NCBI GenBank assembly: GCA_947176895.1
Contig: CAMWSK010000001.1
Location: 124,001-188,000, forward strand
From: an uncultured Prevotellaceae bacterium
GTDB taxonomy: Bacteria; Bacteroidota; Bacteroidia; Bacteroidales; Bacteroidaceae
Direction of reading: 5' to 3'
DNA: 64,000 bases
The position numbers and the translations under genes are program-made. Below are positions 12,827 to 24,726 of the stretch, piece after piece (the stretch's first letter is position 1; each line of letters opens with the position of its first letter). Below the pieces are notes generated by a model. That model had not been told where the DNA came from. It ran no database searches and was given only the letters and a program-made list of their open reading frames with translations.

Positions 12827-12857
12827 TTGTAACTTCTGCTGTCTTTCGCTATATTTG
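12827..12857 (+). promoter_or_regulatory. Promoter of the CotH-type surface-protein gene
   Basis: A TTG at 12827-12829 and a -7 box TATATTTG at 12850-12857 are separated by 20 bases, the usual Bacteroides arrangement. The start codon follows 21 bases later. Confidence 0.7.
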
Positions 12858-12878
12858 CCACGTAAAAACACTTATTCT

Positions 12879-15800
12879 ATGAAAAATAACTTCTTATTAC
12901 CCCTTTTGTTTTTCCTTCTTTCTGCAGCCACATCTCGGGCTGGATGGAACATAGAAAGCGGAAAAGTCTACTACATCACCTGCAATTATGCAGAGGGATG
13001 GCTGGGCTTAGGCCAGTATCAAAACAGCGGTTACCCGATTTATTACCAAACTTCGGGAGCAGAAAAAACAGACGATGCCTGGTGGAAAATCATCCCCGAC
13101 GGCGACGGATACGCCATACAAAACAATCTTAGCAAGGAATATCTGTCGTGGAGCGATGACTACTCCATGTTGCGTAACCTTGACTTAGCTACAAAAGTCA
13201 CCGACGACCGACAACGGTGGACATTGGAGGAAAACGCCGAGGGTATCGTCATACGCAGCCTTTACAACTCCTCCTACCATCTGAACGCCAGAAACCAAAC
13301 TTATTTTGTGGCTCTCTACAGCGGTTCGTTGGGCAACAACAGCATATTCAACATCTGGGACAAAGACGGAAATCGGGTGATGTTCGGCGAGGAACCCGAG
13401 AAAATTCTTGTAGAAAGCATCACGCTCAGCGGTAAGGCCACGATGGCCGTGGGCGAGAAACAACAAATCAACATCAACGTGCTTCCCGAGGATGCCGAGA
13501 ACCGTACCGTCAGCTGGACCTCCAGCGACAGCCGTGTGGTGGCAATAGACAACAACGGACAGGCAACAGCACTCACCGCAGGCACTGCCACCATCACGGC
13601 CACAGCCAACGATGGCAGCAACGTGGCAGGAAGCATAGAAATCACCACCAGCGACCTCTTCATGCACCACGGCAAAGACATGCTCTACCTGCGACACTTC
13701 GACAGCACCATGACGGTCATTCCCCGGGATTTCGTGACCGAATACACTCTCAAGAAGAAACGCTTCAACGCCACACTGGTCAACGATGAGGAGCTGAATA
13801 TCGCCAACATCATGGAAGTGGGCGAGACCGTTCCCCAAGATGTCCCCGCCTTCAGCAGCTATAAATTCAACAACAAATACAATCCCCAGGTGTTCACCGA
13901 CGCCATCTCCGCACACCCCTCGGCCGACACCATCTCCCTGCGGGTGGCCGGCATCGGAAAATGGCTCACCGCATCATTCCAAACAGCCGACCCCTACACA
14001 CGAGCCGAGGTTGACGGCAAGCGGCAGAAAAGCAAACGGACACGCCAAAGCTTTGCACAGCCCGTCACCTATCAACTCACCAATTCCAAGTGGGAAATGG
14101 TCAAACTGCGCAAACAGGAAAACGGTACCTACAAACAGGAGACCGGAGACTTTATCCGCGAACAGACCGTAAATGTCATCTTTGCCACAGACAGCAGCAC
14201 CAACAGCTACCTGGTACCGCGCATAGACATCACCCTGCTGAACGCAGACGGAACCACCTCAACAGGAAATTGGGGCAAGTACAACTGGATCGGTGTCTAC
14301 GGCAAAGGCACTTACATGTCTGCACAAATAGAAATCGACGGAGGAGGCGTATTCCCCGACATGGCTCCCACACCCGTGCAAATCAAAGGTCGCGGAAACT
14401 CATCGTGGTCCTACGACTACATGAGTAAAAACCCTTACCGCCTCAAATTCGCAGCCAAGCAGAAACCTTTGGGAATGACGGCAGGCAAGAGTTGGATTCT
14501 GCTGGCCAACAAACAATCGGGTTCGATGACCTCCAATGCCGTCGGTATGAGGCTGGCCTCCCTGTTCGGAACCGCCGGAGCCAATCACATCGTGCCCGTG
14601 GAACTTTATATCAACGGAAGCTACCGCGGAAGCTATAACCTGACCGAGAAAGTAGGCTTCTCCAACAACAGCATCGACCTCGCCGACGAAACGCTCTCTG
14701 CCATGATTGAAGTGGACACCTACAACGAAGACGACGGAACCACTCCCGACTACAACAATTCATATTCTATAGGTTGTAAGGTGAAAGAACCTGACTTTGA
14801 CGATGAATATTTCAACGAGGGGGGACTGCTAACGAAAGAGATGGTCTTTGCCGATTTCTACAACATGCAGGAAGTGCTGAAAAGAGGTGACGACAGCTAC
14901 ACCAACCTGGTGGATGCAGACTATCTTGCACGCTACCTGTCGGCAAACGAAGCCATGTTCAACCTCGAGCTTAGCCATCCCAAGAGCGTATTCACCTACA
15001 GCGAAGACGTGACCAACACGGTAGCCGATGGGGAAAAAGACCCTACACCCTGGATATTCGGCCCCGTATGGGATTGCGATTGGGCCTTCGGCTACGAGTT
15101 GACGAGGCAATACTTCATAGCAGACGCCGAAACAGACTACTTCGACAGGTTGCTAAAAGCCAATTCATCCAACGTCTTTTGGGAAGATTTGCGCCACAAC
15201 AGCGAAAAAGTCGACAGCACGTATTACCAGATTTGGACAGATGTCATCAACAACGGAGGATTTCAGGAAATGACGGATTTCTGCGATGAATACTACACTT
15301 TCGCCCAAAGATCATTTAGCCACAACAGGGCAAACGAAACAGACAATAAAGATGTCAACAACTATCGCACCATAACCAACAACTGCAAGAAGTGGCTCAC
15401 AGAAAGACTCAACCACATCTACAACAGCCTCACACCCTATCCCCTAAGACCCGAAGAGGATGATGACAGCGAGTATACCGGCATCCTTGGCGATGCCAAC
15501 AGCGACGGAACCGTATCCGTCGCCGACCTCGTGAGCCTGCTCAACCACCTCAGCGGTCAAGAAAACGATACTTTCATGGCAAACCGGGCTGACACCGACG
15601 GCAACGGCTCCGTCACACCCGCCGACGAGGAACCCATGCTCTCGTTGGTCTGGAACCAGACCGTCAACGCCAACCGCAACAACCATCTGCCCCAGGCCAC
15701 CATAAGCATACGGGCCCGCTCGGCTGCCGCCACGCCCAACAGCGAGACGACCGTCAAACTCCAACTGATTGTGGACGAGGGGACCTACAGCGGTCTGCAG

Positions 15801-16232
15801 ATGGACGTGCAGATGCCTGACGGAGTTGAACTGGCCGGAGTGGTTCTTCCGGCTGACATGGCCGAGATGACAGCTCGCACCCACCTGTTGTCCGATGGTC
15901 TATACCGCGTGGTCATCTACGCCAACGGCCAAAAACTTCTGCCCGAGCAACTCACGGAAATCGGTCTGCGCGTGCTCACTACAGACATGATGGAGGAAGC
16001 CGTCATCTTCCAGAACATCACTTCCTCCACCTCTCTCGGCGAAGAAGAACGTCTACCCTCCATGGCCTGCCGCCTGGTGGTGAACGAGAACGGAACCGAT
16101 GCTATACGCCGTCCCACCGACACGACCAACGCCAACGAGCGCACCGCCACCTACGACCTCAGCGGACGCATCGTTCGTCCCGGAAACCGAAAGGGAGTGT
16201 ACATCAAAGACGGAAAGAAATATGTGAAGTAA
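12879..16232 (+). CDS. Large secreted CotH-family protein with Big_2 and dockerin-like modules
   Basis: The 1117-residue protein has a signal peptide (cleavage near TSRA), a ricin-like/beta-trefoil-like N-terminal region (~20-165, repeated W and Q-x-W-like positions), a Big_2 Ig-like domain (~174-265), a central CotH-kinase-like domain (~500-850; QIKGRGNSSW, KSWILLANK, MIEVDTY, PVWDCDWAFGYE), a calcium-binding dockerin-like pair (~870-930; GDANSDGTVSVADL and DTDGNGSVTPADE), a cohesin/CBM-like beta domain and a short C-terminal YDLSGR...GVYIKDGKKYVK tail typical of exported Bacteroidales proteins. CotH of Bacillus is an atypical protein kinase for spore-coat protein; the role of Bacteroidota versions is unknown. 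Start chosen at the ATG after the promoter. Confidence 0.8.
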   Translation: MKNNFLLPLLFFLLSAATSRAGWNIESGKVYYITCNYAEGWLGLGQYQNSGYPIYYQTSGAEKTDDAWWKIIPDGDGYAIQNNLSKEYLSWSDDYSMLRNLDLATKVTDDRQRWTLEENAEGIVIRSLYNSSYHLNARNQTYFVALYSGSLGNNSIFNIWDKDGNRVMFGEEPEKILVESITLSGKATMAVGEKQQININVLPEDAENRTVSWTSSDSRVVAIDNNGQATALTAGTATITATANDGSNVAGSIEITTSDLFMHHGKDMLYLRHFDSTMTVIPRDFVTEYTLKKKRFNATLVNDEELNIANIMEVGETVPQDVPAFSSYKFNNKYNPQVFTDAISAHPSADTISLRVAGIGKWLTASFQTADPYTRAEVDGKRQKSKRTRQSFAQPVTYQLTNSKWEMVKLRKQENGTYKQETGDFIREQTVNVIFATDSSTNSYLVPRIDITLLNADGTTSTGNWGKYNWIGVYGKGTYMSAQIEIDGGGVFPDMAPTPVQIKGRGNSSWSYDYMSKNPYRLKFAAKQKPLGMTAGKSWILLANKQSGSMTSNAVGMRLASLFGTAGANHIVPVELYINGSYRGSYNLTEKVGFSNNSIDLADETLSAMIEVDTYNEDDGTTPDYNNSYSIGCKVKEPDFDDEYFNEGGLLTKEMVFADFYNMQEVLKRGDDSYTNLVDADYLARYLSANEAMFNLELSHPKSVFTYSEDVTNTVADGEKDPTPWIFGPVWDCDWAFGYELTRQYFIADAETDYFDRLLKANSSNVFWEDLRHNSEKVDSTYYQIWTDVINNGGFQEMTDFCDEYYTFAQRSFSHNRANETDNKDVNNYRTITNNCKKWLTERLNHIYNSLTPYPLRPEEDDDSEYTGILGDANSDGTVSVADLVSLLNHLSGQENDTFMANRADTDGNGSVTPADEEPMLSLVWNQTVNANRNNHLPQATISIRARSAAATPNSETTVKLQLIVDEGTYSGLQMDVQMPDGVELAGVVLPADMAEMTARTHLLSDGLYRVVIYANGQKLLPEQLTEIGLRVLTTDMMEEAVIFQNITSSTSLGEEERLPSMACRLVVNENGTDAIRRPTDTTNANERTATYDLSGRIVRPGNRKGVYIKDGKKYVK

Positions 16233-16331: not shown

Positions 16332-17303
16332 CTACAGCTTCACCTCGTCCACACAGATGATGCCATGCACGATGGCGTAAATGGTGAGACCGGCCGCCGC
16401 ATGAATACCCGTTTTTCGGGCAATGTTGCGACGATGGGTCATCACCGTGTTCACACTGATAAACATCTTATCGGCAATCTCCTTATTGCTCAGTCCCATT
16501 GCCACCCGGCGCAGCACCTCTCTTTCCCGGGCACTCAACTCCTCCGATGCGTCTTCGTCCGTTGTCGGCTCCGGCTCATCGTCCACAGGGTTGCCTCCAC
16601 GCTCCCGCACCTCATCCTCCAGCACCCGCACACATTCAGCCAAAAGCGTGTCTTCCAACTGACAATGCGAGAGCAGATCCTCCTCCAGCATATAGACCTC
16701 CATCAGCACGTCATTCAGCAGATGAGCATCAGCTTCCCCGGGATAATACTTCATGATCACATCTTTCAACTCGGAAAAACTCTTCTCTATACTATCGTGG
16801 CTGACATGTCGGTTGCGCAACACGCGATAATAGCTCTCGGCAGGCAGACGGCCCTGAAGCAACTGCCTGATATGCTCATGCACATGCTTCTCTTCATACT
16901 CCATGTGCATGGCCACCTCCTGGGCGCTCTCGTCAAAAAACTTCAAAATAAGGGACACAATCTGATTGTTGCGTGTCATGTCCAAGGCACCCAACAGTTT
17001 GCGCCTTAGTTCGGGCATACGATAATCTACAAAAAAGCCATGGCTCCTCTTCAGATAGCGCACCAGGTCGGGCAGACAGACACGCTGGGCCAACTCACCC
17101 ACATGCACGTGGGTGCCCGCCTTGATATAGTTCACCACCGTCAGGAACGTCGGAGTATCCACCCCGGCTTTTTCACAAGTCTCTGCCACCGTCCGGTCTC
17201 CGAAACCCAGCGTGATGCCGAAGCGCGAGATGAGTTGAAGCATGCGATAGTCCTCACTGATGACATCAATCATCGGGTCTGTCGCGTGAAATTTTTCTAT
17301 CAT
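16332..17303 (-). CDS. LuxR-type regulator with RIC/YtfE-like di-iron hemerythrin domain
   Basis: The 323-residue protein has three parts. Residues ~12-60 resemble the N-terminal domain of ScdA/YtfE iron-repair proteins (RFGITLGFGDRTVAETCEKAG), but the usual Cys-Cys pair is absent. Residues ~80-235 carry hemerythrin-like ligands: His88, His133-x3-Glu137, His169, His213-x3-Glu217. Residues ~254-318 are a LuxR/GerE helix-turn-helix (LSAREREVLRRVAMGLSNKEIA). By family analogy the iron centre could sense oxygen, nitric oxide or redox state and alter DNA binding; this is inference. The gene diverges from a porin gene across 151 bases that hold promoters for both. The downstream hairpin separates it from the CotH-type gene. 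Confidence 0.8.
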   Translation of the reverse strand: MIEKFHATDPMIDVISEDYRMLQLISRFGITLGFGDRTVAETCEKAGVDTPTFLTVVNYIKAGTHVHVGELAQRVCLPDLVRYLKRSHGFFVDYRMPELRRKLLGALDMTRNNQIVSLILKFFDESAQEVAMHMEYEEKHVHEHIRQLLQGRLPAESYYRVLRNRHVSHDSIEKSFSELKDVIMKYYPGEADAHLLNDVLMEVYMLEEDLLSHCQLEDTLLAECVRVLEDEVRERGGNPVDDEPEPTTDEDASEELSAREREVLRRVAMGLSNKEIADKMFISVNTVMTHRRNIARKTGIHAAAGLTIYAIVHGIICVDEVKL

Positions 17304-17322: not shown

Positions 17323-17330
17323 CAAAGGTA
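17323..17330 (-). promoter_or_regulatory. -7 promoter box for the hemerythrin-LuxR regulator gene
   Basis: The minus strand reads TACCTTTG, 19 bases before the start codon. A convincing -33 box is not visible at the usual distance. Confidence 0.5.
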
Positions 17331-17396
17331 TGGAAATAATCGAAATCAAGCATCACCCGGACTGCTTCACCCCATGAAAATCACCACTTTTAGGGA

Positions 17397-17427
17397 TTGT
17401 GATGCCTCTCTGTTTACTCTAATTTTG
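17397..17427 (+). promoter_or_regulatory. Promoter of the porin-like gene
   Basis: TTG at 17397-17399 and TAATTTTG at 17420-17427 are 20 bases apart. An ATCACCACTTTTAGGGATTG segment just upstream and overlapping the -33 box would be a natural place for the divergent regulator to bind, but no clear palindrome is present. Confidence 0.65.
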
Positions 17428-17454: not shown

Positions 17455-18504
17455 ATGAGTGTGAAAAGAGTCCTCTTCATCCTGATATTTGCCACAAACG
17501 TCGGCCTTTTGCAGGCACAGACACCCGCAGACAGCAGCTGCCGGCAGACCGACCACAAATGGCGTATCAGCGGTCTGGGTGAAAGCATTGCCCGTTTCTA
17601 TCCCCACAACCAAGCCAATTTCAGCATCCCACGTTTTGCCGTTACGGCAGAATTCAAACCATCCGACCGCTGGACAATAAACGGAGAAATCGAATTTACC
17701 ACAGAAAACCGGGAAGAACCCTACAGCCTGGAGTTGAACGTAGACTATAAGGTGTGCCCCGCCCTGCAAATCCGGGCAGGCCATCTGCCCGTTCACGTAG
17801 GCCTTTTCAACAGCGACGACTGCCCCACGACCCATTTCACCACAGCCGACCCCGAAGGCGAGACCGCCATACTCCCCTCGGGATGGACTGAGGCCGGGGC
17901 GGGAATCCTCGGTGAATTCGGCAAAAACAAAGCATTCTTCAGATATGCCGCCATGGCCATACTGCCCCTCTTTGAACCCAAACACCGGGCAGCACCGGGC
18001 TACGCCGCACGGCTTAACTGGCATGGTGTTCCCGACCTGTGTCTGGGCGGAAGCCTTTACTTTCAACCGAAGATGGCAGACGGTGACACCAACAGCACAC
18101 CGACAAGTAAAACCTACTGGAGCCTTGACGCCGTATATAATGGGAAAATCATTATCACACGAGCCTGTGCCATTGGAGAACACACAGGAAAAAGCCGCCT
18201 GCAGAGCCGCGCCTTCGGGGGAGAGACCGGACTTAAACTGATGGAAATAACCGGAAACAAGAAATTGATCGGCCTCACCCCTTTTGTCCGATACGACTAC
18301 TACCAAACTCCCGAAAACGAAGAAGACGAACGCGACACCCGCATTCCCACCTCGCTGGCAACCGCAGGTGTCAACCTCAGTCCCTTGCCCTGGCTCCTGG
18401 TCAAGGCCGACTATTCCGCGCGCTTTCATCACTCCTGCACGAAAAAGTGCGGCCACGAGGTGGCCATCGCCCTGGTCCTCACGGGTGATTTTTGGAAAAA
18501 GTGA
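17455..18504 (+). CDS. Putative outer membrane porin
   Basis: The 349-residue protein has a signal peptide (cleavage after LLQA, residue ~21) and a body of alternating short beta strands ending in an aromatic strand (VLTGDFWKK), as in beta-barrel porins. It resembles the phosphate-selective porin O/P or general porin families of Bacteroidales (RISGLGESIARFYP, SLELNVDYKV, LQIRAGHLPVHVG). The transported solute is unknown. It has its own promoter and faces the hemerythrin-LuxR regulator, which may control it. The next gene starts 89 bases later with its own promoter. Confidence 0.65.
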   Translation: MSVKRVLFILIFATNVGLLQAQTPADSSCRQTDHKWRISGLGESIARFYPHNQANFSIPRFAVTAEFKPSDRWTINGEIEFTTENREEPYSLELNVDYKVCPALQIRAGHLPVHVGLFNSDDCPTTHFTTADPEGETAILPSGWTEAGAGILGEFGKNKAFFRYAAMAILPLFEPKHRAAPGYAARLNWHGVPDLCLGGSLYFQPKMADGDTNSTPTSKTYWSLDAVYNGKIIITRACAIGEHTGKSRLQSRAFGGETGLKLMEITGNKKLIGLTPFVRYDYYQTPENEEDERDTRIPTSLATAGVNLSPLPWLLVKADYSARFHHSCTKKCGHEVAIALVLTGDFWKK

Positions 18505-18593: not shown

Positions 18594-19733
18594 ATGAAAT
18601 TCGACAAGATAGACTTTGAAGATCTCGGCGTTTTGGCCGAATACAGTCAGTTTTCCGTTGCCGATGGCGTGACAGAGTGGCATGTCATGTTACACGTACA
18701 CCCGCGTGACGAACTGTTCCCCGGCCAAATGCAACGCATCTACCGGGCCGAAGACCGTCTGCCGGAGTTGGCCCCTTTCGCAGGTGCACGCTGTGTGATG
18801 AAGCGCTACTTCCTTTCCGACAGCGCCAACCAGCAGCCCCTGATGCGACAGGAAGAGAATGTGAGCATCAGCCTCATCCAGCAACAACCCCTCGACGGCA
18901 GCAAGATAGCCGTGTGGCTTTATCTGCAGGCGGGCACGGACATCAGCCGACAAGACGACACCATCCTCACCCGTCACAACGGATATACCCACCTTTGGCA
19001 CATGGGCATGACCAGCCCCGAGGGCGACAGCGCCCGACAGACCCGCACCATCCTGGAGCGCTATGAGCAGGAACTGGCCCGGCAAGGTGCCACATTGGCG
19101 GAAAACTGCGTGCGCACATGGTTCTTCGTGCGCGATGTGGACACACAATACCACGGCCTGGTGGCGGCCCGCCGCGAAAACTTCGAACAGCAGGGCCTCA
19201 CGTCCTCCACGCATTATATCGCCAGCACGGGCATAGGCGGCTCACCCGCCGACACGAAAGCATTGGTACAATTGGGAGGCCTGGCCATCACAGGGCTTGA
19301 ACCCTCACAACAACGCTACCTCTACGCCCCCACCCATCTCAATCCCACCTATGAATACGGGGTGACCTTCGAGCGCGGAACGGCCGTCAGCTACGGCGAC
19401 CGCCGCCACATCTACATCTCGGGCACCGCCAGCATCGACAACAAAGGCAACGTGGTGCATGTGGGCGATGTGGTGAAGCAGACCCGCCGCATGTGGGGAA
19501 ACGTGGAGACGTTGCTGGCCGAGGCCGGCGCGGGATTCGACGACGTGATGCAGATTATCGTGTATCTGCGTGACACGGCAGATGCCCCGAAAGTGAGCCA
19601 AATGTTCCGCGAACGTTTTCCCGACATCCCCACCGTGGTGACACTGGCCCCCGTATGCCGACCCGCATGGCTTATCGAGATGGAGTGTCTGGCCGTCTGT
19701 CCGGCCGAAAATCCTGAATACCGGCCGTTCTAA
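18594..19733 (+). CDS. Rid/YjgF-family protein with two Rid-like halves
   Basis: The 379-residue protein is about three times the length of a normal RidA. The C-terminal ~130 residues match the Rid fold (YISGTASIDNKGNVVHVGDVVKQTRRMWGNVETLLAEAG, with DVMQIIVYLRD), including an arginine in VCRPAWLIEMECLAV at the place of the catalytic arginine of RidA. The N-terminal half is a divergent partner region. RidA deaminates reactive enamines; longer Rid-fold proteins include chorismatases of the FkbO/Hyg5 group, to which this overall layout is similar. Substrate is not determinable here. It is a single gene with promoter and strong terminator. Confidence 0.7.
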   Translation: MKFDKIDFEDLGVLAEYSQFSVADGVTEWHVMLHVHPRDELFPGQMQRIYRAEDRLPELAPFAGARCVMKRYFLSDSANQQPLMRQEENVSISLIQQQPLDGSKIAVWLYLQAGTDISRQDDTILTRHNGYTHLWHMGMTSPEGDSARQTRTILERYEQELARQGATLAENCVRTWFFVRDVDTQYHGLVAARRENFEQQGLTSSTHYIASTGIGGSPADTKALVQLGGLAITGLEPSQQRYLYAPTHLNPTYEYGVTFERGTAVSYGDRRHIYISGTASIDNKGNVVHVGDVVKQTRRMWGNVETLLAEAGAGFDDVMQIIVYLRDTADAPKVSQMFRERFPDIPTVVTLAPVCRPAWLIEMECLAVCPAENPEYRPF

Positions 19734-19925: not shown

Positions 19926-20066
19926 CTACCGCTTACACGACTGCTTCGAGCAACAATCCTTCAGCGAACAGCCCGCGCAGGGGTCGGGACGGCGCCAATA
20001 ATACCGGGCTGCAATCACCGCGACCACCAACACCAAGGCCAGCAATATCCAGCTCTGCACGTTCAT
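19926..20066 (-). CDS. FeoB-associated Cys-rich membrane protein
   Basis: A 46-residue protein: one N-terminal membrane segment (WILLALVLVVAVIAARYYW) followed by a cytoplasmic-side tail with five or six cysteines (DPCAGCSLKDCCSKQSC). This layout matches the small Cys-rich proteins found after feoB in many bacteria, which are thought to help ferrous iron transport. Its ATG overlaps the feoB stop by 4 bases (ATGA), so it is translationally coupled to feoB and the two belong together. Confidence 0.85.
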   Translation of the reverse strand: MNVQSWILLALVLVVAVIAARYYWRRPDPCAGCSLKDCCSKQSCKR

Positions 20067-22432
20067 AACAACCACAAAAGCAGGTTATACACCAGAAAGG
20101 AGACCACCCATGCCAGAACGCACTGGAAGAAGACCGTCATCAGCGCCCATCGTGTGCCCAACTCGCGACGAACCGTAGACACGGCAGCCACACAAGGCGT
20201 ATAGAGCAGACAAAACACCAGCAGGGCAAAGGCCGCCGCCGAACTGATGAGAGCCGACAGGCCCGAGGAGGGAAGCAACGCAGCCAAAGTGCCCACCACG
20301 GCCTCCTTGGCCAGGAAACCGCTGACCAACGCCGTCACGATGCGCCAGTCTCCCAATCCCAGGGGGCGGAAGAGGGGCACCAGCCAGCCACTCACGGTGG
20401 CCAACATGCTTTCGCCCTGATGAGCCTCGTCGAGCATCTGCAGATGCCAGTTGAAATTCTGGAAAAACCACACCACGATGGTGGCCATGAATATGACGGT
20501 GAAAGCACGTACCAAAAAATCCTTGGCCTTCTCCCACATCAACCGGAGCACATTGACGGCCATGGGCATACGATAGTTGGGAAGCTCCATCACGAAAGGC
20601 GTGGCCTCGCCCTTGAACATCGTGCGGTTGAACACCATAGCCACCACAATGCCCATCACGATACCTATGATGTACAAGAGCACCACAATCCATCCCGCCC
20701 AACGCGAGAAGAAAGCCGCCGTAAGAAAAGCATAGATGGGAATCTTTGCCGTACAGGACATGAAGGGGGTAAGCATGATGGTCAGCCGTCGGTCACGCAC
20801 ACTGGGCAACGTGCGGCTGGCCATCACGGCAGGCACGCTGCAACCGAAGCCCACAATCAGGGGCACGATACTACGGCCACTGAGCCCTATCCTGCGCAAA
20901 GCGCCGTCGGTGACGAAGGCTATGCGGGCCATATAACCGGAATCCTCCAGCAACGAGAGGAAGAAAAACAGCAAAAGGATGAGAGGGATAAAGCTGACCA
21001 CAGAGCCTACGCCACCGAAGATTCCGTCAATAATCAGGCTGTGCACGGCCGGAGCAATGTTCCAACCGGTCAGCAACCGGTCAGCCTGACCACCCAACCA
21101 GTCCATACCCTCCTCGGTCCACCCCTGCAGGTCGGCACCCAAACCCATGAAGGTGACATAGAAGATGGCAATCATGATAACCAGAAAACTGGGGATGGCT
21201 GTCCATCGCCCGGTGAGCAGCTTGTCAATGCGGCGGCTGCGCATGTAGTTCTTGTCCTCCTGCGGTCGATGCACCACACCGCTGCACACACGGCGTATGT
21301 AGGCATAACGCATATCGGCCATGGCCGCCTGACGGTCCAGTCCGCGCTCCTCCTCCATCTGTTTCATGATATGCTCGGTAGTCTCCAGTTCGTTTTGGCT
21401 CAACCCCAAGGCCTTCGCCACCAAAACATCTCCCTCGGCCAGTTTTCCGGCGGCAAAACGGATAGGAAGCCCCGCACGCTGGGCATGATCCTCCACCAGG
21501 TGCATCAGGGCATGGAGACAACGATGGACGGCTCCTCCGTGGTCATGCACATCGCAGAAATCCTGACGCCGAGGTTCTTCCCTATACCGGGCCACGTGCA
21601 TGATATGTTGAATCAATTCATGGATACCCTGGTTCTTTTTGGCCGATATGGCCACCACGGGGATACCCAACTGGCTCTCCAGCGCATTGATATCGATATT
21701 TCCGCCGGCAGCCTCCACCTCGTCTATCATATTGAGGCAAAGAACCATGGGCACACCCAGTTCCATCAGTTGCAGGGTGAGGTAAAGATTGCGCTCCAGG
21801 CTGTTGGCATCAACGATGTTGATGATGCCGTGGGGATGATTCTCCAAAATATATTGGCGCGTAACCACCTCTTCATGACTGTAAGGCGACAGGCTGTAGA
21901 CACCGGGAAGATCGATTACCGTGGTTTCGGGATGGCCTTTGATCTGCCCTTCCTTCAGATCGACCGTGACACCGGGAAAATTGCCGACATGCTGGTTGGC
22001 ACCCGTAAGTTGATTGAACAACGTGGTCTTTCCCGTGTTCGGGCAGCCAACCAAAGCCAAAGACAAGTGGGTATCCTTGATGGGACGGTCAGAGGAATTG
22101 TGGAAACGAGGACCGTCTTCGCCAAAACCGGGGTGATCCATCTCATGGCGAGCGACCTGTTTCAATGGCCGGACAGACTCTTTTTCTCCCGATTCATCGG
22201 TCTCGCGGCTTTCCATGTCCACATGAATATGGCGGGCATCATCCAGGCGAAGTGTCAGTTCATAGTTCTGAACACGCACCTCCACGGGGTCGCCCATAGG
22301 GGCGAACTTGATGATGGAAACATCGGCGCCGGGTATCAGTCCCAAATCAAGAAGATGCTGACGCATGACACCCTCCACGTCCACACTAAGGATTCGGGCA
22401 CTCTGCCCGACCTTCAAGTCTTTTAATGTCAT
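20063..22432 (-). CDS. feoB: Ferrous iron transporter, FeoA-FeoB fusion
   Basis: This 789-residue protein imports Fe(II) across the inner membrane. Residues 1-75 form a FeoA-like SH3 domain fused to FeoB, the usual arrangement in Bacteroidales. A disordered linker (~76-120) leads to the GTPase domain, with G1 GCPNTGKT at 129-136, DLPGVYSLSPY for G3 and LNMIDE for G4. The C-terminal half has many membrane segments with the two gate regions. A -7 box lies 22 bases upstream; I see no clear Fur box. The adjacent small Cys-rich gene is coupled at the 3' end. Confidence 0.95.
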   Translation of the reverse strand: MTLKDLKVGQSARILSVDVEGVMRQHLLDLGLIPGADVSIIKFAPMGDPVEVRVQNYELTLRLDDARHIHVDMESRETDESGEKESVRPLKQVARHEMDHPGFGEDGPRFHNSSDRPIKDTHLSLALVGCPNTGKTTLFNQLTGANQHVGNFPGVTVDLKEGQIKGHPETTVIDLPGVYSLSPYSHEEVVTRQYILENHPHGIINIVDANSLERNLYLTLQLMELGVPMVLCLNMIDEVEAAGGNIDINALESQLGIPVVAISAKKNQGIHELIQHIMHVARYREEPRRQDFCDVHDHGGAVHRCLHALMHLVEDHAQRAGLPIRFAAGKLAEGDVLVAKALGLSQNELETTEHIMKQMEEERGLDRQAAMADMRYAYIRRVCSGVVHRPQEDKNYMRSRRIDKLLTGRWTAIPSFLVIMIAIFYVTFMGLGADLQGWTEEGMDWLGGQADRLLTGWNIAPAVHSLIIDGIFGGVGSVVSFIPLILLLFFFLSLLEDSGYMARIAFVTDGALRRIGLSGRSIVPLIVGFGCSVPAVMASRTLPSVRDRRLTIMLTPFMSCTAKIPIYAFLTAAFFSRWAGWIVVLLYIIGIVMGIVVAMVFNRTMFKGEATPFVMELPNYRMPMAVNVLRLMWEKAKDFLVRAFTVIFMATIVVWFFQNFNWHLQMLDEAHQGESMLATVSGWLVPLFRPLGLGDWRIVTALVSGFLAKEAVVGTLAALLPSSGLSALISSAAAFALLVFCLLYTPCVAAVSTVRRELGTRWALMTVFFQCVLAWVVSFLVYNLLLWLL

Positions 22433-22453: not shown

Positions 22454-22461
22454 CAAAGATA
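22454..22461 (-). promoter_or_regulatory. -7 promoter box for the feo operon
   Basis: The minus strand reads TATCTTTG, 21 bases before the feoB start. A T-rich stretch ending in TTTG lies about 17 bases further upstream, slightly closer than the usual spacing. Confidence 0.55.
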
Positions 22462-22502
22462 CGACATTATTTCCTCAACAAAAAAAGGAGATTGAAAATT
22501 AC

Positions 22503-23477
22503 CTAAAAGTGGTGAGGCAGAGGGTGAAGGTCGAACCACAGGGGAACGTGGTCGCTCACCCCGCCATGATAGAAAGTGCCCATGAACGTGCGGCGGGGAT
22601 GCCATCCCCCGTGCGAGTCCTTGTCCTGCAACCACGGGGCGGTGTAGAGATAAACAGGGCCGGCCACGGAAACCAAGGCAGGGGAAACCAACGCGTGGTC
22701 TATCCACGACCAAAGGCCCTTGTAGCGATAGGTACCCTCCGAAGGATAACGTTTTTGGGGCACAAGGTTCACCAGTTTTGTCAGTTTTCTGAAGACCTTG
22801 TCATGCGGAGGCGCGTTGAAATCGCCCAAAACAACAAGATTTCCACCCTCGCCTATGCTGTCGGCCAACAGATTCAGCGTCCCGACAGCCAAATGCCGTC
22901 CGCGCTGACCCGCCCGCCCACCGAGCCGGCTGGGAAGATGGCAGACGACCACATGCAGGGTGTCTCCGCCCGGAGCGAGACCCTTCACCCACAGGATGTC
23001 GCGCGTGGCGGGCAACGCATGTTCCCGAGAGGGCACACGAACGGCATGCCAGTCCAACAGACGAAAACGGGCGGGACGATAGAGAAGAGCCACATCCATG
23101 CCACGGCGGTCGGCACTTTGCGTCATGACGTAAGAAAAGTCGAGGTTGCGAAGACTGCTACGCCGGCAAAGGTCTGTCAACACCGAGTCGTTCTCCACCT
23201 CGCACAAGCCCACAAGGTCGGGTGCGGCATCGCCACCAACAGCCATCAGCACACGGCTGACATCGGTGAGTTTGCGCCAATAACGCCCCCACGTCCATCT
23301 GCGCTCACCTTCAGGCAGAAACTCGAAATCGTCCTTCAACGTGTCGTGACGGCAGTCAAACAGGTTCTCCACGTTCCATTCCACAATACGCAGGGGACGT
23401 TGCGCACAGACGGTCTGCAGGGCGGATGCCCACAGAAAGACAAAGAAAACAGGGTAACGAAACCGCAGACTACTCAT
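22503..23477 (-). CDS. Endonuclease/exonuclease/phosphatase family protein, exported
   Basis: The 324-residue protein has a signal peptide (FFVFLWASALQTVCAQ) and then the EEP fold: EWNVENLFD (metal-binding Asn and Glu), LVGLCEVEND, VVCHLPSRLGG, VVLGDFNAPPHD and a C-terminal SDHVPLW motif containing the catalytic His. Members cleave nucleic acids, phospholipids or inositol phosphates; the export signal argues for an extracellular substrate, for example DNA as a phosphate or nucleoside source. The ATG at 23477 is chosen because it gives a signal peptide and overlaps the upstream peptidase gene by 8 bases, indicating coupling. Confidence 0.8.
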   Translation of the reverse strand: MSSLRFRYPVFFVFLWASALQTVCAQRPLRIVEWNVENLFDCRHDTLKDDFEFLPEGERRWTWGRYWRKLTDVSRVLMAVGGDAAPDLVGLCEVENDSVLTDLCRRSSLRNLDFSYVMTQSADRRGMDVALLYRPARFRLLDWHAVRVPSREHALPATRDILWVKGLAPGGDTLHVVVCHLPSRLGGRAGQRGRHLAVGTLNLLADSIGEGGNLVVLGDFNAPPHDKVFRKLTKLVNLVPQKRYPSEGTYRYKGLWSWIDHALVSPALVSVAGPVYLYTAPWLQDKDSHGGWHPRRTFMGTFYHGGVSDHVPLWFDLHPLPHHF

Positions 23478-24726
23478 AGATGAGGGTGGTCTGCGCCTCG
23501 GGCGACAAGTAGCGTTGCGCCACATCTTGCAACCTGCCCGGAGTGAGGGCATCGATACGCTCGTTGAAACGCTCCTCATCGAGCACCGTTCCATGGTGGA
23601 GCATACGCTTGCCCATGCCGATGGCCACGCTCTCGAAATTGTCACGCGAAATGCGCAACTGCCCCTTCAACTGGCGTTTGGCCGCCTCCAACTGACGGGG
23701 ACTGAGCGGACTGTCGCACAGACGCTGCAACTCGCGACTCACCAAGCGCAGGCAACGGCGCACATCGTGAGGATCGCAACCGAAATAGGCGCTCCAGACT
23801 CCCGCATCGGTATAGGCCTGCAAGGCGCTCTCCGAGGTGTAGACCAAAGCGTTCCGCTCACGCAACACCACATTCAGACGGGCATTCATGCCGGGGCCTC
23901 CCAGAATATTATTAAGAAGGAAGAGGGGAAGATAGTCGGCATCGGACTGACCGCAGCAGCGGTTTCCTACCAACACGTGGGTCTGATGGGTGTCCTTATT
24001 GCGGCGCACCACACGCGCCTCGGGAGAAAGGGTGGGTGTCCGGCGGACAATAGGCGGGACGGGATCAAAGGCCTCACCCTCCATCATGGATTCCTGCGAC
24101 ATTTGCCTGAGCCGGCGCTCGGCCACCTGCACCACCTGTCTCAGCGTGACACGCCCATAGACAAAGAGCACCATGCGGGCGGGATGGTAGAGACGGCGGA
24201 CGAAGCGAAGCATACCCTCACAGGTGTGCTCGCGAAGGAGTTCGGCATCGCCCAAAATCTTTCGCCCCAGGGGATGTTGGGGAAACAACAAGCCCTCAAA
24301 ATCATCAAAAATCAGTTCGGAGGGCGAATCGTTATAGCTCTCTATCTCATCCACAATCACCTCCACCTCCTTGTCCATCTCCCGCTGGGGGTAGATGCTC
24401 TGCAGGGTGATGTCGAGCAGCAGTTTGATGGCACGGGAATAGTGCTCCACGGGTGTGGTGCAATAATACACGGTCTCCTCCTTGCCGGTGTACGCATTCA
24501 AATCTCCGCCCACGGACTCCATACAATTGATGATGCTCATGGGAGATCGCCGGGGCGTTCCTTTGAAACTCATATGCTCCGCATAGTGAGCCATACCGCT
24601 TTCCCAAGGCTGTTCATCGCGCGTGCCGGCATCGACAGCTATACCCAGGTAGGCCGTGGACGTGGGGGAAGGGGCACACACCACACGCATTCCGTTGGAG
24701 AGGGTGCAGATTTCTGTGTTGTTCAT
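23470..24726 (-). CDS. M16-family zinc peptidase
   Basis: The 418-residue protein shows the inverted zinc motif HYAEH at residues 47-51 (HxxEH) and the downstream glutamate in a VIVDEIESYNDSP segment, so the catalytic half is intact. The second half (from about residue 240) is the typical inactive M16 partner domain, with the R-Y-like GGPGMNARL region. No signal peptide is seen, so it should be cytoplasmic and probably degrades peptides. It overlaps the WbqC-like gene by 4 bases upstream and the endonuclease-family gene by 8 bases downstream. Confidence 0.9.
   Translation of the reverse strand: MNNTEICTLSNGMRVVCAPSPTSTAYLGIAVDAGTRDEQPWESGMAHYAEHMSFKGTPRRSPMSIINCMESVGGDLNAYTGKEETVYYCTTPVEHYSRAIKLLLDITLQSIYPQREMDKEVEVIVDEIESYNDSPSELIFDDFEGLLFPQHPLGRKILGDAELLREHTCEGMLRFVRRLYHPARMVLFVYGRVTLRQVVQVAERRLRQMSQESMMEGEAFDPVPPIVRRTPTLSPEARVVRRNKDTHQTHVLVGNRCCGQSDADYLPLFLLNNILGGPGMNARLNVVLRERNALVYTSESALQAYTDAGVWSAYFGCDPHDVRRCLRLVSRELQRLCDSPLSPRQLEAAKRQLKGQLRISRDNFESVAIGMGKRMLHHGTVLDEERFNERIDALTPGRLQDVAQRYLSPEAQTTLIYE

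Follow-up and report, generated by a model that had tools for sequence, protein, structure and literature searches.

The closest described relative of the gene studied here is the CdhR system, which pairs a hemerythrin-domain protein with a LuxR-type regulator in split or fused form. A hemerythrin gene is followed by cdhR in Porphyromonas gingivalis (PG1236-PG1237) and in Bacteroides thetaiotaomicron (BT_0519-BT_0520), and the two are fused in Prevotella intermedia (PIN17_RS10465) (PMC10434189). Iron limitation induces the P. gingivalis operon 7-fold and the B. thetaiotaomicron operon 16-20-fold (PMC10434189), and CdhR regulates hmuYR (PMC10434189, PMC10101095). In the literature that we found, the domain is called only hemerythrin, and the system is described without a sensor mechanism or a binding site. 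Hemerythrin-like di-iron folds do sense O2 or iron in other proteins, such as Vibrio cholerae Bhr-DGC, DcrH and the iron sensor FBXL5, but these are of another hemerythrin subclass and, instead of binding DNA directly, have as their output a cyclase, chemotaxis or, in FBXL5, a ubiquitin ligase.

Two further groups of proteins are relevant to this locus. The RIC/YtfE/ScdA iron-repair proteins (TIGR03652; PDB 5FNN, 7BHA, 9R7J) have a two-domain architecture and six di-iron ligands, which in Escherichia coli YtfE are H84/H204 at Fe1, H129/H160 at Fe2 and the bridging residues E133/E208 (PMC9268430). The NarL/FixJ/LuxR response regulators (LiaR, VraR, NarL) supply the second comparison, and NarL sites consist of TACYYMT heptamers in a 7-2-7 arrangement (PMC4886647, PMC4549865). 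As described below, the regulator combines features of both groups, having the ligands of the former at similar spacing and the helix-turn-helix (HTH) and, as predicted, the 7-2-7 TACYYMT-type operator of the latter.

The window, that is, the whole stretch of 64,000 nucleotides of DNA that was analysed, contains an open reading frame at 16332-17303 (-) that is a real gene, with an ATG start and a product of 323 aa (P0001). Domain searches, family alignment and structure modelling identified the product as a fused RIC-LuxR regulator of the CdhR type, a class in which a RIC-like domain and a GerE HTH of the same subfamily are encoded either by a single gene or by two overlapping ones. It is the fused, Prevotella-type form of the known CdhR system, and is thus neither an orphan nor new as a fusion; that it corresponds to the P. 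gingivalis and B. thetaiotaomicron genes is concluded from family, gene order and the description in PMC10434189, and not from the sequences of those genes. At lower coordinates, a gene for a large secreted protein at 12855-16232 (+), CotH-kinase-like by eye and with Ig-like and dockerin-like stretches, stops 100 bp short of the end of the regulator gene.

The protein begins with an ScdA-like N-terminal domain (about residues 10-66; 17106-17276, (-)), followed by a hemerythrin-like four-helix domain (about residues 76-234; 16602-17078, (-)), a linker (about residues 236-253; 16545-16598, (-)) that was modelled at low confidence, with pLDDT <50 at 242-253, and a NarL/LuxR-type HTH (about residues 254-317; 16353-16544, (-)). 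That a LuxR HTH closes the protein, as an earlier reading of the sequence alone had it, was borne out by a match to PF00196 at residues 255-310 (E 3.9e-19). The Pfam hemerythrin family PF01814 matched residues 98-222 at 24.5 bits, slightly under its cut-off of 25.3, and the NCBIfam model TIGR03652 spans residues 17-221 (E 3.4e-10) and, with 40 bits, falls far short of the 204.7 bits that define its equivalogs. A phmmer search of the PDB with the single protein returned LuxR HTHs only, and RIC structures surfaced only with a profile. The best structural match of the AlphaFold2 model of the 323-aa protein (pLDDT 87.4, pTM 0.69) is Staphylococcus aureus ScdA (Z 16.2, 154 residues, rmsd 3.2), E. 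coli YtfE scores Z 15.6, and this similarity covers about residues 51-229, whereas de novo helical bundles score Z 13.3 and below. The C-terminal domain of the model is matched by the HTHs of LiaR and VraR (Z 11.7). Unlike in the response regulators, a receiver domain is absent from the fused protein, both by Pfam and in the model, and the input is a di-iron domain. We therefore confirm that a RIC-type di-iron domain is fused to a LuxR HTH.

Comparison of family members revealed that the residues picked out in the sequence-only reading, His88, His133/Glu137, His169 and His213/Glu217, are identical in all 50 proteins (35 fused, 15 split), down to about 27% identity. Ten columns are invariant in an alignment of 45 members, namely G33, G35, C43, F53 and exactly the six ligands, and when canonical Cys-Cys RICs were added the invariant columns were the six ligands and L148 only. 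The YtfE ligands named in that reading (H84, H129, E133, H160, H204 and E208) agree with the published set (PMC9268430). In a profile alignment to E. coli YtfE, H133, E137, H169, H213 and E217 fall on H129, E133, H160, H204 and E208, and the H88/H84 column is shifted. H88 can be taken as the equivalent of H84 because it aligns with an invariant His of other canonical RICs in the family alignment, and because H88 and H84 both lie 45 residues before the next ligand. Fold and ligand conservation are computational observations; that the RIC-type domain is occupied by metal we infer.

The regulator differs from the repair proteins in several respects. The Cys-Cys pair is lost, as had been noticed, with Gly33-Phe34 standing in its place and LGF-G where canonical RICs have FCCGG; an ScdA_N domain with the DfCCgG motif was not found in the protein, and ScdA_N was weakly detected in 6 of 45 relatives. 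The loop ahead of H169 is shorter, and the iron-gate residue Glu159 is lost, a Glu being present there in 1 of 45 relatives. A third cysteine, C43, which is invariant in the regulator family, is present in canonical RICs too, and the counterpart of YtfE Glu125, E129, is kept in 42 of 45 relatives. No canonical or other RIC was found in the window's own genome (88% complete). Stand-alone RIC-like proteins that also have no Cys-Cys pair and no adjoining LuxR gene were observed in other Bacteroidia (L160-L170), and in two of these loci (L161:1480-2229 and L163:1480-2238) the next gene encodes a ferritin.

A match to the regulator was found in 142 of the 151 genomes of the family, a few of these by the HTH only. 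In many genera the split form is present, with RIC and LuxR genes that overlap or directly adjoin each other, and the HTHs of these LuxR partners are 47-62% identical to that of the fused regulator. Structure models showed the split partner to fold as a receiver plus HTH. This receiver is degenerate, since Pfam barely recognises it (its receiver model reaches 1 of the 15 partners, at E 0.02) and the phospho-acceptor Asp, after strand 3, is replaced in 14 of the 15, mostly by Asn and otherwise by Glu or Ser, with Asp in the remaining one. The degenerate receiver probably answers to its RIC partner and not to a kinase. As the fusion has the RIC domain in the place of the receiver, direct control of the HTH is indicated. 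When a tree was built from the RIC domain, split forms were among the deepest branches and look ancestral. At least two changes between split and fused are needed on it, and the fusion may have arisen once or repeatedly. One genome (G132) was observed to carry two fused paralogues of the regulator separated by 21 kb, at C3:77905-78885 (L015) and C3:99938-100912 (L047), the second of which is strongly diverged with all six ligands kept.

Inspection by eye of the regions upstream of the regulator gene revealed a 7-2-7 palindrome, AATACYYAWNNWTRRGTATT, which is present in most relatives. Its consensus, AA-TACYYAW-NN-WTRRGTA-TT, amounts to two TACYYMT heptamers 2 bp apart, which is the shape expected of sites for the NarL-type HTH that the regulator carries. 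A symmetric model with a threshold of 14 bits detected the palindrome in 51 of 87 distinct upstream regions, as against 0.2% of shuffled regions, although the loci are phylogenetically related and the counts are thus not independent; when the model was refitted to shuffled sets, it detected a site in 0-4 of 87. Training on half of the regions allowed sites of at least 12 bits to be recovered in 25/43 and 26/44 regions of the held-out half, as against 0.4-0.5% of shuffled ones. The palindrome also precedes 11 of the 15 split operons, at 17.8 bits or more and 45-80 bp before the start codon; nine of the 11 were outside the training set, the exceptions (L032 and L036) being identical with loci L070 and L069. 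About 40% of relatives have no such palindrome ahead of the gene; these are chiefly divergent members or ones in which the gene lies inside an operon.

The occurrence of the palindrome in whole genomes was compared with the presence of the regulator. Exact sites numbered 175 in the 136 genomes with a full regulator match (1.3 per genome) and four in the 15 genomes without one, a few of which keep 1-2, and a reversed control pattern gave 23 and 0, respectively; this comparison is supporting only and one-sided, as several of the 15 genomes are incomplete. Exact patterns are weak in the window's own genus because sites there deviate from the consensus. A search of the window against Rfam gave no match and hence no indication of an RNA element. 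The NarL-type shape, the presence of the palindrome before both split and fused genes, and its rarity in genomes without the protein make it likely that the predicted operator belongs to the RIC-LuxR regulator, the identity of the binding protein being read from these correlations.

The position of the palindrome was also compared with that of promoters. Bacteroidetes promoters have a -7 element, TAnnTTTG. Of 502 flanks of 251 distinct sites, 116 have this element starting exactly 20 bp beyond the site, the next highest count at any distance being 13. This spacing places the site near -42, overlapping the -33 region, which is typical of an activator. An overall periodicity of 10.5-11 bp in the distances to the -7 element was not found across all sites. 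At feoAB promoters only, the distances often fall on a series of 20, 35/36, 46/47, 57/58 or 67/68 bp, and as the series is confined to these promoters, helical phasing stays a hint.

Only two sites of at least 12 bits are present in the window. The best, AAATCACCACTTTTAGGGATTG (17378-17399; 23.5 bits), lies between the regulator gene and a divergent outer-membrane porin-like gene (17455-18504, (+)), whose product is 25-31% identical to Porin_O_P-type neighbours in relatives. A -7 box for the porin gene, TAATTTTG (17420-17427, (+)), stands 20 bp after this predicted operator, and that of the regulator's own promoter, TACCTTTG (17323-17330, (-)), is 47 bp from it. The second site (22497-22518) is weak, at 12.5 bits, and lies upstream of a gene for a FeoA-FeoB fusion, a ferrous iron transporter (20063-22432, (-); TIGR00437, E 3.9e-174) that is a further predicted target; here the -7 box, TATCTTTG (22454-22461, (-)), is 35 bp from the operator. 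A frame at 22503-23666 (-), open over 387 codons, ends (…SDHVPLWFDLHPLPHHF and stop) inside this predicted operator, and probably represents a real 3' gene end mixed with chance reading.

The genes around the regulator were examined in other genomes. A divergent operon encoding Porin_O_P, imelysin, a di-haem oxidoreductase, a second Porin_O_P, an unnamed protein and a Rid-like protein was found in 32 of 100 loci, imelysin being a family linked to iron. The window keeps only the porin-like gene and the last gene of this operon, a Rid/chorismatase-like gene (18594-19733, (+); PF01042) that is a neighbour in 34 loci, and the window's own genome (88% complete) yielded no imelysin. FeoAB is encoded near the regulator in 11 of 100 loci, in several of these at 50-620 bp and either directly divergent or in the same orientation, and 20 of 26 feoAB promoters of genus members have a site, as against 0.6% when shuffled.

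We also searched the window's own genome by pattern for composite sites. When up to three mismatches were allowed, the operator together with the -7 element was found three times (control, 0). The regulator/porin site and the promoter of an operon encoding a calycin-like protein, HmuY and a TonB receptor rank highest of the three. The link to hmuY that is known for CdhR has a sequence counterpart, a predicted operator and -7 box ahead of the hmuY operon of this genome. Most of 30 HmuY loci across the order have no site, those of the own genome (17.0 bits), G460 (19.2 bits) and G450 (23.2 bits) standing out, and the hmuY link is therefore not universal. Exact sites in relatives precede genes for a flavodoxin, three TetR proteins, TonB receptors, two methyltransferase types and FeoAB, and these classes appear in published lists of genes induced by iron starvation (PMC10434189). 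An operator-like site was also seen at position 2404 (22.3 bits, with a -7 box at 20 bp) ahead of an enolase gene (L268:1065-2378, (-)), for which a link to iron is not obvious. The divergent porin, which the sequence-only reading had named, is a predicted target by its operator, as one among several that include feoAB, the hmuY operon and the regulator's own gene.

Overall, our data favor the interpretation that the protein is a one-component di-iron transcriptional activator of iron-acquisition genes, to which we assign a probability of roughly 0.7. We hypothesize that the RIC-type domain, without the repair cysteines and the gate Glu, reports the iron and possibly the redox state of the cell, and that it controls a NarL-type HTH dimer while standing in for a receiver domain. 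When iron-loaded, the di-iron domain would keep the HTH inactive, in a manner similar to iron sensing by FBXL5, and dimerisation and activation would be released once iron is lost, or perhaps once the centre is oxidised or nitrosylated; the direction of this switch is one that we infer. In iron-poor cells the HTH dimer would then bind AATACYYAWNNWTRRGTATT beside the -33 region of sigma-ABfr-type promoters and recruit polymerase, and the divergent porin gene, the regulator's own gene, feoAB and the hmuY operon would be activated. The suggestion that a repair role had been turned into sensing gains from the complete set of ligands in a RIC fold, the loss of the Cys-Cys pair and Glu159, the fused HTH and the operator at iron-uptake genes, and the signal, which had been left as oxygen, NO or iron, can be narrowed. 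Iron sufficiency is the most likely signal, given that the genes predicted to be controlled serve iron acquisition and that iron starvation is the condition reported to induce the orthologues.

Other interpretations have to be weighed against this one. A direct response of the di-iron site to O2 or NO, on when reduced or anoxic and off when oxidised or nitrosylated, or the reverse, is possible and compatible with the chemistry, which for RIC proteins includes reactions with NO and O2 species (PMC9268430), and it would fit both the lower cdhR and hmu levels reported under microaerophilic conditions (PMC10101095) and the sensing of O2 by other hemerythrin domains, such as that of V. cholerae Bhr-DGC. 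We consider it unlikely, however, because the predicted targets serve iron acquisition and not the detoxification of NO or O2, and iron limitation is the strongest published inducer. We give a similarly low likelihood to the operator being owned by some other iron regulator, such as a second NarL-type protein, with RIC-LuxR merely one of its targets. Such an owner would account for the sites before many genes, and for the few genomes that keep one or two exact sites without a full regulator match, but the palindrome is built exactly as NarL-type HTH sites are, in the 7-2-7 form, precedes split and fused forms alike and is rarer where the regulator is absent, and published CdhR acts on hmuYR while the hmuY operon carries a site in this genome.

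Retention of the original chemistry appears less probable still. The complete ligand set, E129 in 42 of 45 relatives and the lack of any other RIC in the genome are what would be expected if the RIC domain still repaired or stored iron and the HTH were a secondary device for localisation or autoregulation; such a role is difficult to reconcile with the loss of the Cys-Cys pair and of the Glu159 gate (gone in 44 of 45) and with a partner domain that is a complete HTH and has an operator close to many iron genes. Hemerythrin domains of the PG_0686 type can be non-canonical, and the metal site might by analogy be vestigial, with the domain sensing a small molecule or a protein partner instead. 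This we regard as the most improbable of all, given that the six ligands are invariant over 50 proteins and, with one Leu, form the sole columns in common with canonical RICs.

Returning to the iron-sensing activator that we favor, what our analyses would add to the CdhR system is the RIC identity of its hemerythrin domain with complete ligands, the apparent replacement of a degenerate receiver by that domain, and a predicted operator with an iron-uptake regulon. A wider proposal, that a Bacteroidales-wide one-component iron sensor arose from an Fe-S repair fold, acting first on the degenerate receiver of a NarL-type partner and, once fusion had removed this receiver, on the DNA-binding domain itself, and is the long-missing master activator of the iron-starvation response with a defined operator, seems to us evenly balanced between true and false. 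The evidence offers a candidate di-iron sensor, a receiver-replacement logic, an operator sequence and a predicted regulon. If the interpretation is correct, the regulator would add to the rare examples of DNA binding being controlled directly by a di-iron protein, and it would provide a testable sensor and DNA target for the poorly understood response of the Bacteroidetes to iron starvation.
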